Shown here: piece by piece, positions 3,835-63,390 of the stretch
Layout of the letters: every line of letters begins with the position of its first letter
Position numbering within the stretch: position 1 is the stretch's first letter
Made by a program: the position numbers and the translations under genes
The notes under the pieces: generated by a model
What the model was told of the DNA's origin: nothing
What the model saw: the letters and a program-made list of their open reading frames with translations, nothing else
Database searches by the model: none
DNA from: Bacteroidia bacterium
Lineage (GTDB): Bacteria; Bacteroidota; Bacteroidia; AKYH767-A; OLB10
NCBI GenBank assembly: GCA_016788065.1
Contig: JAEUTI010000081.1
Location: 1 to 64,000 of the forward strand
Reading direction: 5' to 3'
Length of the DNA stretch: 64,000 nucleotides

Positions 3835-4587
3835 TCAGGCTTCAACTTCTTCCTTAATCCAATCGTATCCTTTTTCTTCAAGTTCCAGGGCAAGCTCTTT
3901 GGTACCTGATTTAACGATGCGGCCTTTGTAAAGCACGTGCACGAAATCGGGAACAATATAATCCAGTAATCTTTGGTAGTGTGTGATTACAATGAAGGAA
4001 CGTTTCCCATCGCGCAAAGCATTCACCCCATTGGAGACAATACGGAGGGCATCGATATCGAGTCCGGAATCGGTTTCATCCATGATAGCTAATTGTGGTT
4101 CCAGCATGGCCATTTGAAATATCTCATTTCTTTTTTTCTCCCCACCACTGAAGCCTTCATTCACAGAACGTGTGGTCATCTGCTTGTCCATTTCAACGAG
4201 CTTCATTTTCTCTTTCATAACAGCAAGAAAGTCCTTCGAATCATAAGGTTCAAGTCCTTTTGATTTCCGAACCTCATTAACGGCAGTTTTAAGAAAATTC
4301 GCATTGCTTACTCCGGGAATTTCAACCGGGTATTGGAAAGCCAGAAATATACCTGCCCGGGCACGGTCCTCGGGAGACAATTCCAATAAATCGACACCAT
4401 TGAAAGTAACAGTACCATCGAGAACTTCATATTCTTCTCTTCCCGCTAAAACAGAAGCAAGGGTACTTTTTCCGGAACCATTAGGACCCATTATGGCATG
4501 CACTTCACCGGGTTTAACATCCAAATTCAATCCGTTTAGAATTTGTTTTTCTTCAACACGCGCATGCAGATTTTTGATCGTTAACAT
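3835..4587 (-). CDS. sufC: Fe-S assembly ATPase SufC
   Basis: A 250-residue ABC-type ATPase that powers the SufBCD scaffold; it is cytoplasmic and not a transporter. Walker A is GPNGSGKS at residues 34-41, the signature is FSGGEKKR at 146-153 and Walker B with catalytic Glu is LAIMDE at 166-171. The signature variant with EKKR is characteristic of SufC. Between it and sufB lie a tandem heptamer array, palindromic repeats and a four-helix-bundle gene, so the usual tight sufB-sufC spacing is broken by about 690 nt. Confidence 0.97.
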   Translation of the reverse strand: MLTIKNLHARVEEKQILNGLNLDVKPGEVHAIMGPNGSGKSTLASVLAGREEYEVLDGTVTFNGVDLLELSPEDRARAGIFLAFQYPVEIPGVSNANFLKTAVNEVRKSKGLEPYDSKDFLAVMKEKMKLVEMDKQMTTRSVNEGFSGGEKKRNEIFQMAMLEPQLAIMDETDSGLDIDALRIVSNGVNALRDGKRSFIVITHYQRLLDYIVPDFVHVLYKGRIVKSGTKELALELEEKGYDWIKEEVEA

Positions 4588-4600
4588 TTTTATTTAAGTA

Positions 4601-4640
4601 GTAAGTTGTAAGTTGTAAGTTGTAAGTTGAAGGTTGTAAG
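4601..4640. repeat. Heptamer tandem array (GTAAGTT)n
   Basis: Four perfect copies of GTAAGTT (4601-4628) are followed by a variant GAAGGTT and a partial GTAAG. The heptamer resumes as TTGTAAG at 4666-4672 and 4685-4691, after two palindrome insertions. The array sits between the four-helix-bundle gene and sufC. Confidence 0.95.
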
Positions 4641-4684
4641 CGCCGCCCTGAGCGCAGCCGAAGGGTTGTAAGCTAATCGAAGGG
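4641..4684. repeat. REP-like palindrome copy plus a truncated second copy
   Basis: A full copy of the dispersed palindrome family lies at 4641-4665 (core GCCCTGAGCG, end CCGAAGGG). A shorter piece with the same end, CTAATCGAAGGG, lies at 4673-4684. Both interrupt the GTAAGTT array, and deleting either would leave the 7-nt phase intact. Other copies are at 17689-17743 and 62764-62954. Confidence 0.85.
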
Positions 4685-4696
4685 TTGTAAGTTTTG

Positions 4697-5089
4697 TTAG
4701 ATATTTGCTTCCTTGTTTTTATCGGAGTTTTTTTCAAGATATTTTATAAAATTGTTGATCATGCTGCTGATTTCTGAAGCCATTTTTTGGCAACGGATGA
4801 AAACTTCTTCATTAATATAATTCAAGTCAAAGCAGATATATAATTGAGAGCGTAATTCACCTGCGGAGCCCTTCGCAACATTGAGAAAATATTTAAACTC
4901 TTTATTACTTTTTCTTTCAAAGCCCTCTGCAATATTTGACATGATTGAAATAGATGATTTACGAATTTGGTCTTTTAAAGCGAAGTCTTTGTTGAAGTTG
5001 GGTAAATTAGATTCTGCATAAATCATTTTGTTTAATTCTCTCGCGCGTTGCCAGGCTTGTATGTCTTCAAATTTAACTATTGCTGCCAT
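4697..5089 (-). CDS. Four helix bundle protein (23S rRNA intervening-sequence protein family)
   Basis: A 130-residue, all-helical protein. Motifs typical of the family are FEDIQAWQRARELNKMIY at the N-terminus, then KDQIRKSSISIMSNIAEGFER and the FLNVAKGSAGELRSQLYI helix. Its biochemical role is unknown; homologues occur inside 23S rRNA intervening sequences and as many free-standing copies in Bacteroidota. Here it lies between sufB and sufC on the same strand and is not part of known suf machinery. It is bracketed by heptamer arrays at 4601-4640 and 5237-5267, which share an inverted 13-mer. This suggests an inserted unit rather than an ancestral operon member. Confidence 0.88.
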   Translation of the reverse strand: MAAIVKFEDIQAWQRARELNKMIYAESNLPNFNKDFALKDQIRKSSISIMSNIAEGFERKSNKEFKYFLNVAKGSAGELRSQLYICFDLNYINEEVFIRCQKMASEISSMINNFIKYLEKNSDKNKEANI

Positions 5090-5236
5090 AAAAAAAGATT
5101 TTAAAAAGTGGTATATGTTTATTATTATATTAATTTGATAACCTTATTGAATCAAGAATTAATTTTAAGAATTAATATGAATTATTATAATGAATAACTT
5201 TTATATGTTATACATTTCAGCTATTCAGTACTCTAT

Positions 5237-5267
5237 AACCTTCAACTTTCAACCTTCAACTTTCAAC
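5237..5267. repeat. Heptamer tandem array (AACYTTC)n
   Basis: Four alternating copies of AACCTTC and AACTTTC plus a partial AAC. The 13-mer CAACCTTCAACTT at 5250-5262 is the exact reverse complement of AAGTTGAAGGTTG at 4624-4636, so the two arrays flank the four-helix-bundle gene in inverted orientation. Confidence 0.92.
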
Positions 5268-5275
5268 TGTTTTCA

Positions 5276-6721
5276 TTACCCTACACTTCCTTCTAAGCTA
5301 ATCGCAAGTAACTTCTGTGCTTCAACGGCAAACTCCATCGGCAACTGATTAAAGACTTCTTTACAATAGCCATTTACAATTAATCCAATTGCATCTTCTG
5401 TGGCGATGCCTCTTTGGTTGCAATAGAAGATTTGATCTTCGCCAACTTTCGAAGTAGTGGCTTCATGTTCTACTTTCGCAGATTTGTTGGCTACTTCAAG
5501 ATAAGGGAATGTATGTGCTCCGCATTTATCACCCAGCAATAAGGAATCACATTGTGAGAAATTTCGGGCATTATCTGCTTTCTTGTTAATCTTCACCAAC
5601 CCGCGATAACTATTATGACTTTTTCCTCCGGAAATTCCTTTTGATATAATGGTACTCTTGGTGTTTTTGCCAATATGAATCATCTTCGTTCCGGTATCGG
5701 CTTGTTGCATGTTGTTAGTGACAGCAACAGAATAGAATTCACCAATAGAGTAATTCCCTTTAAGAATTACACTGGGGTATTTCCAGGTAATAGCAGAACC
5801 GGTCTCGACCTGCGTCCATGAAATTTTGGAGTAGTCACCCAGACAAATTCCTCGTTTAGTAACGAAATTATAAATACCACCTTTACCTTCTTTGTCACCG
5901 GGATACCAGTTTTGCACGGTAGAATATTTTACTTGCGCACGTTCGTGAGAAACAATTTCAACAACTGCTGCATGCAACTGGTTCTCATCACGCATTGGAG
6001 CAGTACATCCTTCGAGGTAACTCACATAAGCGCCTTCTTCCGCAACTATCAGAGTACGTTCAAATTGACCGGTACCTGCTGAATTTATGCGGAAATAAGT
6101 AGATAATTCCATCGGACAACGAACGCCTTTTGGTATGTAACAGAAAGATCCGTCACTGAATACTGCCGAGTTAAGTGCAGCATAATAGTTGTCGGTTGCC
6201 GGAACTACAGAGCCAAGATATTTTTTTATTAAATCCGGATGTTCATGTACAGCTTCTGAGAATGATGAAAAAATAATTCCCAATTCAGCAAGTGATTCCC
6301 GAAAGGTCGTCTTCACAGAAACGCTGTCGATAACTGCATCAACAGCAACGTTAGCGAGTCGCTTTTGTTCTTCAAGTGAAATACCAAGTTTATCGAATGT
6401 TGCCTTAATTTCAGGATCAAGTTCATCGAGGCTGTTTAAAACCTTCTTAGGCTTAGGAGCTGAATAATAAATAATATCCTGAAAGTTAATTTCTGGGTAA
6501 TTTACATTGGGCCACTTAGGCTCGGTCATTGTCAGCCAATGCCTGTATGCTTTCAGTCTCCATTCCAATAACCACTCTGGCTCATTTTTTTTAGTTGAAA
6601 TGAATCGAACTATATCTTCACTCAATCCCATCGGTGCATTGTCGGATTCTATATCCGATACAAAGCCCCATTTGTACTCCGAAGAGGTTACCTCATCCAG
6701 TATTTTCTGATCGTCTGACAT
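5276..6721 (-). CDS. sufB: Fe-S cluster assembly scaffold protein SufB
   Basis: A 481-residue core scaffold on which Fe-S clusters are built in the SufBC2D complex. Conserved stretches include [21 protein letters not shown], the beta-helix region with [19 protein letters not shown], and the C-terminal [20 protein letters not shown], which contains the conserved cysteine-containing segment. Length is normal for SufB. It follows the sufA-like gene by 43 nt and is probably co-transcribed with it. Confidence 0.97.
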
Positions 6722-16439: not shown

Positions 16440-17618
16440 TTACGAAAATGCATTTTCACCGGTGACATCCATACCTGTAATTAATAAGTGGATATCGTGT
16501 GTGCCTTCGTAAGTTATTACCGATTCGAGGTTCATCATATGGCGCATGATCGGATATTCTCCGGTGATTCCCATTCCGCCATGAATTTGTCTTGCTTCAC
16601 GGGCAATTTCAAGAGCCATATTCACATTATTTCTCTTAGCCATTGATATTTGTGCGGGTGTTGCTCTGTTTTCATTTTTCAGTACACCCAAACGCCATGT
16701 GAGTAATTGTGCTTTGGTGATTTCAGTAATCATCTCAGCAAGTTTTTTCTGCTGCAACTGAAATCCTCCGATAGGGCGACCAAATTGTTTACGTTCTTTA
16801 GAATATCTTAATGCGGAATCATAGCAATCCATTGCAGCACCAATTGCACCCCATGAAATTCCGAAGCGGGCAGAATTGAGACATCCCAAAGGACCTTTCA
16901 ATCCCTTTACATTTGGTAACAGATTTTCTTTAGGAACCTGAACGTTATCGAAAACAAGTTCACCGGTAGCAGAAGCACGAAGCGACCATTTGCCATGTGT
17001 TTCAGGAGTTGTAAATCCTTTCATGCCACGTTCAACAATCAGACCTCTGATAACACCTTCTTCATCTTTAGCCCAAACTACTGCAATTTGCGCAAATGGA
17101 GCATTACTGATCCACATTTTGGCACCATTTAAAACATAATGATCACCTTTATCTTTGATATTGGTTACCATACCATTCGGATTCGAGCCATGATCCGGTT
17201 CTGTTAGTCCGAAGCATCCCAACCATTCTCCGGATGCTAATTTTGGTAAGTATTTTTTACGTTGCTCTTCACTTCCGTAAGTGTAAATAGGATACATTAC
17301 CAGTGAACTTTGTACCGATGCGGTAGAACGCAGACCTGAATCACCACGTTCGAGTTCCTGCATAATTAGTCCGTATGAAATCTGATCTAATCCGCCACCA
17401 CCATATTCAACAGGAATATATGGACCGAAAGCACCGATCTCAGCTAAGCCTTTAACCAGATGTTTCGGGAATTCACACTTTTGACAAGCTTCTTCAATAA
17501 TCGGAGAAACTTCTTTTTTCACCCAGGCACGAACCGTGTCACGAATGAGTTTGTGTTCGTCGGTTAACAATTCGTCGAGTAAATAGTAATCGGGTGCCTG
17601 AAAACGGTCTTGAGCCAT
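16440..17618 (-). CDS. gcdH: Acyl-CoA dehydrogenase, glutaryl-CoA dehydrogenase type
   Basis: A 392-residue FAD-dependent enzyme. It closely follows the glutaryl-CoA dehydrogenase pattern: SVQSSLVMYPIYTYGSEEQ, LGCFGLTEPDHGSNP, KWSLRASATGE, and TYEGTHDIHLLI with catalytic base E371. Glutaryl-CoA dehydrogenases oxidise and decarboxylate glutaryl-CoA to crotonyl-CoA in lysine and tryptophan breakdown. No neighbouring gene of that pathway is present, so the substrate is inferred from similarity only. It has its own terminator downstream. Its upstream region is the repeat-rich spacer. Confidence 0.88.
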   Translation of the reverse strand: MAQDRFQAPDYYLLDELLTDEHKLIRDTVRAWVKKEVSPIIEEACQKCEFPKHLVKGLAEIGAFGPYIPVEYGGGGLDQISYGLIMQELERGDSGLRSTASVQSSLVMYPIYTYGSEEQRKKYLPKLASGEWLGCFGLTEPDHGSNPNGMVTNIKDKGDHYVLNGAKMWISNAPFAQIAVVWAKDEEGVIRGLIVERGMKGFTTPETHGKWSLRASATGELVFDNVQVPKENLLPNVKGLKGPLGCLNSARFGISWGAIGAAMDCYDSALRYSKERKQFGRPIGGFQLQQKKLAEMITEITKAQLLTWRLGVLKNENRATPAQISMAKRNNVNMALEIAREARQIHGGMGITGEYPIMRHMMNLESVITYEGTHDIHLLITGMDVTGENAFS

Positions 17619-17624
17619 GGAGAG

Positions 17625-17647
17625 AATTAAGGATTAAGGATTAAGGA
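17625..17647. repeat. Heptamer tandem array (AAGGATT)n
   Basis: About three copies of AAGGATT directly upstream of the acyl-CoA dehydrogenase start. The word is the reverse complement of the AATCCTT array at 63281-63304. Confidence 0.9.
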
Positions 17648-17688
17648 ATGTATTTGAGAAATTATCTAAATTTTTGAAATCATCAGCA

Positions 17689-17743
17689 CCCCTCAACTTT
17701 GCTCAGGGTAGCACATCAGCACCCATTCGGCTTCGCTCAGGGC
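17689..17743. repeat. Two REP-like palindrome copies separated by an octamer unit
   Basis: Copy one (17689-17708, ending TTTGCTCAGGG) and copy two (17722-17743, CGGCTTCGCTCAGGGC) are in the opposite orientation to those at 4641 and 62764. CATCAGCA units lie before, between and after them. Confidence 0.85.
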
Positions 17744-17747
17744 AAAG

Positions 17748-17850
17748 CATCAGCACATCAGCACATCAGCACATCAGCACATCAGCACATCAGCACATCA
17801 GCACATCAGCACATCAGCACATCAGCACATCAGCACATCAGCACATCAGC
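17748..17850. repeat. Octanucleotide tandem array (CATCAGCA)x12.9
   Basis: Twelve perfect copies of CATCAGCA plus seven bases of a thirteenth, with no spacer. It is non-coding in all likelihood. The length of 103 nt without a mismatch indicates recent slippage or active homogenisation. Confidence 0.97.
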
Positions 17851-62686: not shown

Positions 62687-62756
62687 TTTGCTGATTCTTT
62701 AATGTGCTAGTGTGCTGATTTTTGTTCCTCAGTAACAATTGGGTGACTGCACTTGA

Positions 62757-62805
62757 GTGACAAGCGCTGCCCAGAGCGAAGTCGAGGGGGGACAAGTGAC
62801 AAGTG
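62757..62805. repeat. GTGACAA heptamers interrupted by a REP-like palindrome
   Basis: GTGACAA at 62757-62763 is followed by a palindrome copy (62764-62790), then GACAA and GTGACAA at 62791-62802. The heptamer word is present on both sides. Confidence 0.8.
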
Positions 62806-62838
62806 GGGTGTGTGGACAAAAAGATGTGACTGCACATT

Positions 62839-62954
62839 GGTTGAAAGTTGAAAGCGCTGCCCAGAGCGTAGTCTAATGGGCGCCGCCCTGAGCGTAGTCG
62901 AAGTGTGCCCTGAACGCAGTCGAATGGGCGCTGCCCTGAGAAAAGCCGAATGGG
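62839..62954. repeat. TTGAAAG heptamers followed by four consecutive REP-like palindromes
   Basis: GGTTGAAAGTTGAA (62839-62852) also occurs in the array near the four-helix-bundle gene on the other strand. Palindrome copies are at 62854-62880, 62881-62905, 62906-62928 and 62929-62954, all in the same orientation and diverged from each other in the middle and at the ends. Confidence 0.87.
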
Positions 62955-63280
62955 TGCCGTTAAGCATGCTTCAGCTCTGCTTCACGGTTAGTGATTTGAT
63001 GATTCTTAATTTAAGTGTTTCTGCTCAGCAATTGAAATCTTTCTTAAAAATTGTTTGTTGCGGAATTAAAAGTGATAAACACATAATCAAAAAATTAATA
63101 ACGGCATTAGTTTTCTATTCAGAGTTCAGTGTTTTTCACTTTTAATTTTTAAGAATTATGTTTTTACCTATAAATATGTTTGCTCAAGAAAATCTCTTTT
63201 CATCTTAAAAATGATTTATTTAAGATTGACTAACAAAAATTGAAAAGTGAAATATTATAAAGCTAGAACCTAAAATTTTT

Positions 63281-63304
63281 AATCCTTAATCCTTAATCCT
63301 TAAT
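63281..63304. repeat. Heptamer tandem array (AATCCTT)n
   Basis: Three perfect AATCCTT copies plus AAT. It is the reverse complement of the AAGGATT array at 17625-17647. Confidence 0.92.
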
Positions 63305-63350: not shown

Positions 63351-63390
63351 AAACAAAAGAGGCGCACTATGCAGTGCGCCTCTTTTGTTT
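63351..63390 (-). terminator. Strong rho-independent terminator of recQ
   Basis: A perfect 18-bp inverted repeat AAACAAAAGAGGCGCACT (63351-63368) with its complement at 63373-63390 and an ATGC loop. On either strand it ends in T-rich sequence, so it may act bidirectionally. It overlaps the recQ stop codon by 2 nt. Confidence 0.93.

Follow-up and report, generated by a model that had tools for sequence, protein, structure and literature searches.

Inverted heptamer arrays around a four-helix-bundle protein gene between sufC and sufB of a Bacteroidia bacterium, and a palindromic passenger in one of them

In the window (the whole stretch of 64,000 nt analysed here) a GTAAGTT array is broken by palindromic sequence in such a manner that the 7-nt phase of the array is kept. 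Two questions are raised by this locus: what the array is, and why the palindrome lies in it in phase. Heptamer repeats of bacteria have been known since about 1990. To our knowledge, the origin of the heptamer tandem repeats of cyanobacteria, Bacteroidota, Xanthomonas and Beggiatoaceae is not agreed upon, and we know of no role outside rRNA for the genes of the four-helix-bundle 23S rRNA-intervening-sequence proteins (IVP). Joining the IVP genes with the heptamer repeats, as described below, gives a testable explanation for both and may explain part of the puzzling heptamers.

A cassette between sufC and sufB

The layout given for 4601–4691 in an earlier note (array up to 4640, 25-nt palindrome, TTGTAAG, 12-nt piece and array again) agrees with the sequence. 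That note overlooked the IVP gene as well as a second array, in inverse orientation, at 5237–5268. The features of the locus are as follows (read from the sequence where no other source is given).

3835–4587, minus strand: host gene sufC (ABC ATPase; PF00005, suf operon context)
4595–4640, plus strand: 3' arm of the cassette, located upstream of the sufC start; (GTAAGTT)n array of period 7 (TRF) that reads CAACTTAC on the coding strand
4641–4665, plus strand: 25-nt palindromic passenger, composed of the foot CGCCG and the 20-nt core CCCTGAGCGCAGCCGAAGGG (core at 4646–4665); 82 genome copies, period restored on removal
4666–4672, plus strand: single array word TTGTAAG, separating both interruptions
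4673–4684, plus strand: 12-nt piece CTAATCGAAGGG
4685–4693, plus strand: array restart, TTGTAAGTT
4697–5089, minus strand: IVP gene, 130 aa, four-helix-bundle 23S rRNA-intervening-sequence protein (PF05635, E 6.7e-36; TIGR02436, E 2.9e-34; PDB 2gsc, 2rld)
5237–5268, minus strand: 5' arm of the cassette, just after the sufB stop, a GAAAGTT/GAAGGTT array on the coding strand (TRF); inverted partner of 4595–4640
5276–6721, minus strand: host gene sufB (PF01458)

The cassette spans 4595–5268 and is located between sufC and sufB; its IVP gene has the direction of the operon and lies between inverted heptamer arrays. The closest solved structures to the IVP are 2gsc and 2rld (five chains each). The inverted match of 4595–4640 with 5237–5268 has a score of 45 against a control median of 22. 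This anatomy, an IVP gene between inverted arrays, is well supported. The array at 4595–4640 is one arm of the IVP cassette, an assignment that is new and better supported than the reading in which array and palindrome form a composite element. A structure predicted for the intercistronic suf RNA has both arms paired around the IVP ORF, and the fold is moderately better than those of shuffled sequences (z of -2.2, 20 shuffles). The array words of the window, TTGTAAG and TTGAAAG, contain no runs of three or more G. Exact short tandem arrays make up 0.28% of the window, and the window has no match in Rfam. The 12-nt piece CTAATCGAAGGG is probably a remnant of the palindrome, in which a 13-nt internal deletion would have left the 5' C and the 3' TCGAAGGG.

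Inverted arms at other IVP loci and in related genomes

At each IVP locus the sequence preceding the gene was scored against the reverse complement of the sequence following it, with a threshold of at least 33. This score is reached at 33 of 67 IVP loci and at 9 of 284 control ORFs (p 6e-18), and the inverted score exceeds the direct one at 55 of the 67 loci. Within single genomes the own arms match at 22 of 52 loci and mispaired arms of different IVP loci in none of 212 cases (p 6e-19); these loci overlap with the first set and some come from the same genus, so that the two tests are not fully independent. The controls used were direct orientation, control ORFs and the within-genome comparison, while mispairing of unrelated loci was dropped, being inflated by one very long low-complexity locus. 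RNA duplex energies of own and mispaired arms agree with these results (p 3e-18); the ORF control is here confounded by G+C content.

Arms are present at 45 of 97 distinct IVP loci, about half being without clear arms at this threshold. The autocorrelation of the arms (45 loci) is 0.55 at lags 7 and 14, ~0.35 at lag 8 and ~0.25 elsewhere. Most arms start within ~10 nt of the upstream stop codon, some overlapping it, and end within ~10 nt of the downstream start codon; for 76 of the 97 IVP genes, both neighbouring genes have the same direction as the IVP gene. In the same genome, other IVP loci have other words: ATTAAGG between pyruvate dehydrogenase genes, TTTGGTGA at the site at 97 kb of contig C59, and TCATTG words with small hairpins at the locus on contig C38. 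IVP genes are found in 193 of 247 Bacteroidota genomes, with up to 16 per genome. Among further genomes, nearly all of other phyla, arms are present at 14 of 23 IVP loci against 6 of 506 mispaired combinations, with the words GGGTAAA and GGGGACT in Nostoc calcicola, GTAACAAG in a Phycisphaerae MAG and AGTCAGC in Edaphobacter. A four-helix-bundle gene between matching inverted arrays, mostly of 7-base words private to each copy, recurs in several phyla. IVP genes have also been reported from cas operons, in Pleurocapsa for example between cmr3 and cmr2 (PMC3936711), which fits insertion between operon genes. No description of arms around IVP genes was found in the open-licence literature on IVP and arrays, PMC3936711 included. 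As a separate observation, the IVP gene of locus L068 (G000:C17) is flanked by long direct, not inverted, repeats.

The comparison of the present genome (G000) with that of a sister species (G001, genes 92–95% identical) and with a related genus bears on the mobility of the cassette. At the suf site of the sister species both arms carry a new word (TGGCAAG in place of TTGTAAG) and the IVP is 63% identical; at the 97-kb site of C59 both arms have changed from TTTGGTGA to TGTGCTGA and the IVP is 57% identical. The IVP of three loci without a change of word is 94–100% identical. Since both arms and the IVP differ jointly at two loci, arms and IVP change as a unit. Empty sites are seen in four genomes of the related genus, where the sufB-sufC gap is 54–108 nt against 688 nt here; the gap of the pyruvate dehydrogenase genes is 53–100 nt in four genomes of that genus against 585 nt here. 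No mobilising enzyme for the cassette was found, and its mechanism of mobility is one that we infer.

The palindrome as a passenger of the array

A search of the 4.26-Mb genome (97 contigs) for the palindrome core, with up to 2 mismatches allowed, gave 82 copies, and the same search with the reversed pattern as a control gave none. The earlier note proposed that flanking repeats be scored around the palindrome copies of the whole genome. Array words lie at most 45 nt away on the same strand in 71 of the 77 copies with full flanks and on the opposite strand in 4 of the 77 (214 words against 4). The claim of that note that removal of the palindrome restores the period of the array holds as well. 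When the 24–25-nt foot and core are cut out, 47 of 77 copies regain a 7- or 8-nt period at an identity of 0.7 or more. With mispaired flanks (200 shuffles) the number is 19.4 on average and never above 29, a level that is due to the words which the copies have in common. Excision 2–4 nt too short or too long restores it in only 4–25 of 77, and in the sister species the period is restored in 29 of 51 copies. The in-phase palindrome in a heptamer array is a real observation, stronger than first stated and general.

The feet of the palindrome are CGCCG (31), CTTG (24), CGCTG (15) and CGTCG (9), and 8-nt array words go with a 4- or 5-nt foot. The bases 5' of the foot are mostly AAG, ATG or CAG; those 3' of the core are TG or TT. 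Probably, the palindrome was inserted in one strand orientation between the G and the T of (A/T)GT without target duplication and was later multiplied by slippage together with the words. The palindrome is in phase because of a short strand-specific target without target duplication, or because word and element were duplicated together; a new composite element, which the earlier note had read from the phase, is not required for this. A few compensatory changes are seen in the palindrome stem (2 of 6 pairs; 5 both-side cells, a number reached in 2 of 500 shuffles). A strong hairpin in single-stranded DNA was considered and rejected: the palindrome folds no better than shuffled sequences and its predicted stability is low. 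A RAYT was likewise rejected as its mover, the genome having 2 Y1 transposase genes with no palindrome copy in the loci around either.

The other sites of the window at which palindromes or arrays are found are listed below.

17626–17647, plus strand: ATTAAGG array, immediately ahead of the start codon of the minus-strand gene 16440–17618
17689–17708, minus strand: degenerate copy of the palindrome
17723–17742, minus strand: palindrome copy, in phase in the TGCTGATG array and common to the sister species (sequence comparison)
17748–17850, minus strand: TGCTGATG array, 12.9 copies here; in the sister species 2 plain words and three 34-nt word+palindrome units (comparison with G001)
62770–62789, plus strand: palindrome copy flanked by GTGACAAG words (pattern search)
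62886–62953, plus strand: three tandem palindrome copies (62886, 62908, 62934)
63279–63304, minus strand: TTAATCC array, reading GGATTAA on the strand that carries the gene ending at 63389

The pairing of palindrome and tandem repeat at 17681–17850 and 62757–62953 is real, but the palindromes at 62886–62953 are mostly tandem to each other and have no enclosing array.

According to the earlier note, a palindrome that targets short arrays forms one new composite mobile element with them. Within this genus, copying of the palindrome together with array words is borne out: its copies have a fixed strand and keep the phase of the arrays in which they lie, and at the 17.7-kb site the present genome has multiplied the 8-nt word and the sister species the 34-nt word+palindrome unit. 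Furthermore, a block of ~700 nt without an IVP gene (arrays, palindrome and TTAATCC words; L433 11230–11975, G000:C24) fills an intergenic region here from the terminator to the next start codon, whereas the orthologous site of the sister species (C215) has ~130 nt of unrelated sequence, so that a whole array block with its palindrome is present or absent between the two. One pair of orthologous loci (L030/L125) differs by the palindrome: both members have the same 8-nt word family, but only that of the present genome contains the palindrome, and the empty allele of the sister species is uninterrupted. The suf site offers no such pair, since the sister species holds a different cassette there.

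As a general rule the composite was rejected. The exact 20-mer of the palindrome occurs in at least 118 stretches (Spirochaetes, Verrucomicrobia, Acidobacteria, Chloroflexi, Cyanobacteria, Patescibacteria, Proteobacteria, Clostridia and others). In other genomes it lies mostly outside arrays; 13 of 115 copies pass the phase test as against ~6 with mispaired flanks, and the in-phase copies are single cases such as one among ATGCCCA words of Nostoc calcicola and one among TTGGAAG words of a Chloroflexi MAG. Targeting of arrays by the palindrome as such, or one new element made of both, is then not supported. Arrays and IVP arms also occur without the palindrome, and its absence near both Y1 transposase genes speaks against a composite too. 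Taken together, one composite mobile element is an unlikely explanation of the locus.

Nor would the combination be a novelty, since hairpin elements of 21–27 nt inside tandem heptamers, the small dispersed repeats (SDR) of Nostoc, were reportedly described by Elhai in 2008, a study cited in PMC3116915. The present palindrome resembles them by description, being 24–25 nt long, dispersed and in phase in heptamer arrays; it differs in belonging to another phylum and in its demonstrated strand-locking to the array word. REP/REPIN sequences with RAYT are dispersed intergenic palindromes of 20–40 nt with an unpaired foot (PMC3733652, PMC3116915), and the palindrome is likewise short, dispersed, intergenic and provided with a foot. 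In contrast to them its feet are CGCCG, CGCTG and CTTG rather than GTAG, the CGTC of the GTAG/CGTC tag pair being found in the 9 CGTCG copies only, and the repeat does not flank the Y1 genes of the genome. The palindrome is a secondary REP/SDR-like passenger.

Proposed role of the arms and relation to known systems

The closest known system to the IVP cassette is the intervening sequence (IVS) of 23S rRNA. IVS with an S23p/IVP ORF are found in Coxiella and Leptospira with a scattered, apparently horizontal distribution (PMC4990558); in Coxiella the S23p ORF lies in the loop of a 28-bp terminal stem which is cut by RNase III (PMC4990558). Common to the IVS and the cassette are the protein family (PF05635), terminal inverted repeats that could pair into a stem enclosing the ORF and the scattered distribution. 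In contrast to the IVS, the suf cassette lies between the protein genes sufC and sufB and not in a 23S rRNA helix, and this location places it outside the rRNA IVS family. The arms differ as well, being short-word tandem arrays, mostly of period 7 and private to each copy, and their excision by RNase III would be a matter of analogy.

By this analogy, the arms most likely pair in the operon mRNA with the IVP gene held in the loop, and such pairing would place the start codon of the downstream gene close to the stop codon of the upstream one. The paired arms are probably cut by RNase III, and the IVP may bind the arms of its cassette. We propose that the insertion would cost the operon little because the stem hides it and the arms are cut. 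Should cutting or bridging of the arms take place in mRNA, the cassette would be an intron-like insertion that bacterial operons tolerate. The array at 4601–4691 is thus probably the 3' arm of a mobile IVP cassette, an mRNA counterpart of the 23S rRNA IVS, with the palindrome as a secondary passenger. Such a cassette would dwell in operons as a selfish or regulatory element, whose arms must match each other and nothing else in the genome.

Several points count against this reading: the lack of clear arms at about half of the IVP loci, the z of only -2.2 for the suf fold and the failure to find a mobilising enzyme. Most palindrome-bearing arrays are not next to an IVP gene, which lies within 1 kb of only 1 of the 77 palindrome copies. 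The orientation bias may simply be due to a requirement for read-through transcription, the arms could have been made alike, with no RNA function, when inverted repeats were corrected by template switching, and the 57–63% identity of the IVP could also come from fast divergence in place.

A regulatory role of the arms is conceivable: by binding to its own arms the IVP would control translation of the operon or its stability, and this use would be the reason for keeping the cassette. The strict stop-to-start placement in the direction of the operon would suit such regulation, as would the relation of IVP to Avd, a nucleic-acid-binding DGR protein, although the match is weak (20.2 bits to the Avd equivalog model, below its cut-off of 80). 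The cassette is, however, patchy at each locus and missing from related genera, and its host genes are unrelated; this explanation appears unlikely as well. Mutation only, with slippage growing arrays and palindromes and template switching keeping inverted arms alike, without mobility or function, would fit the copy-number differences of 8- and 34-nt units between the two species, which look like slippage, but is quite improbable, since the empty sites, the locus-private words, the joint replacement of IVP and both arms and the tie of inverted arms to one gene family need more than slippage.

The reading as a mobile IVP cassette also touches on heptamer arrays described elsewhere. In the relevant passages of Rehm 2015 (PMC4692102), G-rich heptamer arrays of Xanthomonas and Nostoc lie between aligned ORFs; the G-strand follows stop codons at a distance of at most 50 bp and lies on the antisense strand ahead of start codons, and Xanthomonas has paired convergent repeats. 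The IVP arms share the placement of the G-strand after the stop and of the C-strand before the start (G exceeds C in 42 of 45 upstream arms), and as described in those passages the placement rule would be accounted for by IVP-cassette arms. Unlike the arms, which need not be G-rich or quadruplex-forming, these repeats are treated there with a focus on quadruplexes, and no IVP gene is named in the passages concerned. TAACTGA direct repeats, intergenic and near start codons in Beggiatoaceae, Cyanobacteria and Bacteroidetes according to the relevant passages of PMC4679880, are similarly intergenic heptamers common to distant phyla; they differ in having one fixed word, and neither an inverted partner nor an IVP gene is reported in those passages. 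More tentatively, IVP cassettes may be widespread mobile elements between operon genes of many phyla, with arms that serve as heptad barcodes specific to each element, fold in the mRNA and bear the recognition by their own IVP; many bacterial heptamer repeats would then be living or decayed arms and the palindromes second-order passengers.

Some further observations concern the arrangement of arrays and hairpins. A conserved connector of ~30 nt, TTCCTGAGTAAAAAGATGTGACTGCACTT, lies between array blocks of different words at 62700–62960 and at many other loci of the genome (L074, L077), and together with such blocks it forms long mosaic intergenic clusters, many of them at contig ends. The TCATTG arrays flanking an IVP gene (L063, G000:C38; L344, G001:C31) contain a second hairpin family, GCGGCGNAGCCGC and GCAGCTGAAGCTGC between TGTCATTG words, with changes on both stem sides. 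Eight palindrome copies, most of them in 32-nt word+palindrome units, are found in one IVP-cassette arm of the sister species (L133 2008–2210, G001:C176), the counterpart in the present genome having 0. In a Candidatus Aquidulcis MAG (L206) an inverted repeat of GTGATGC-like words has the palindrome at its centre.
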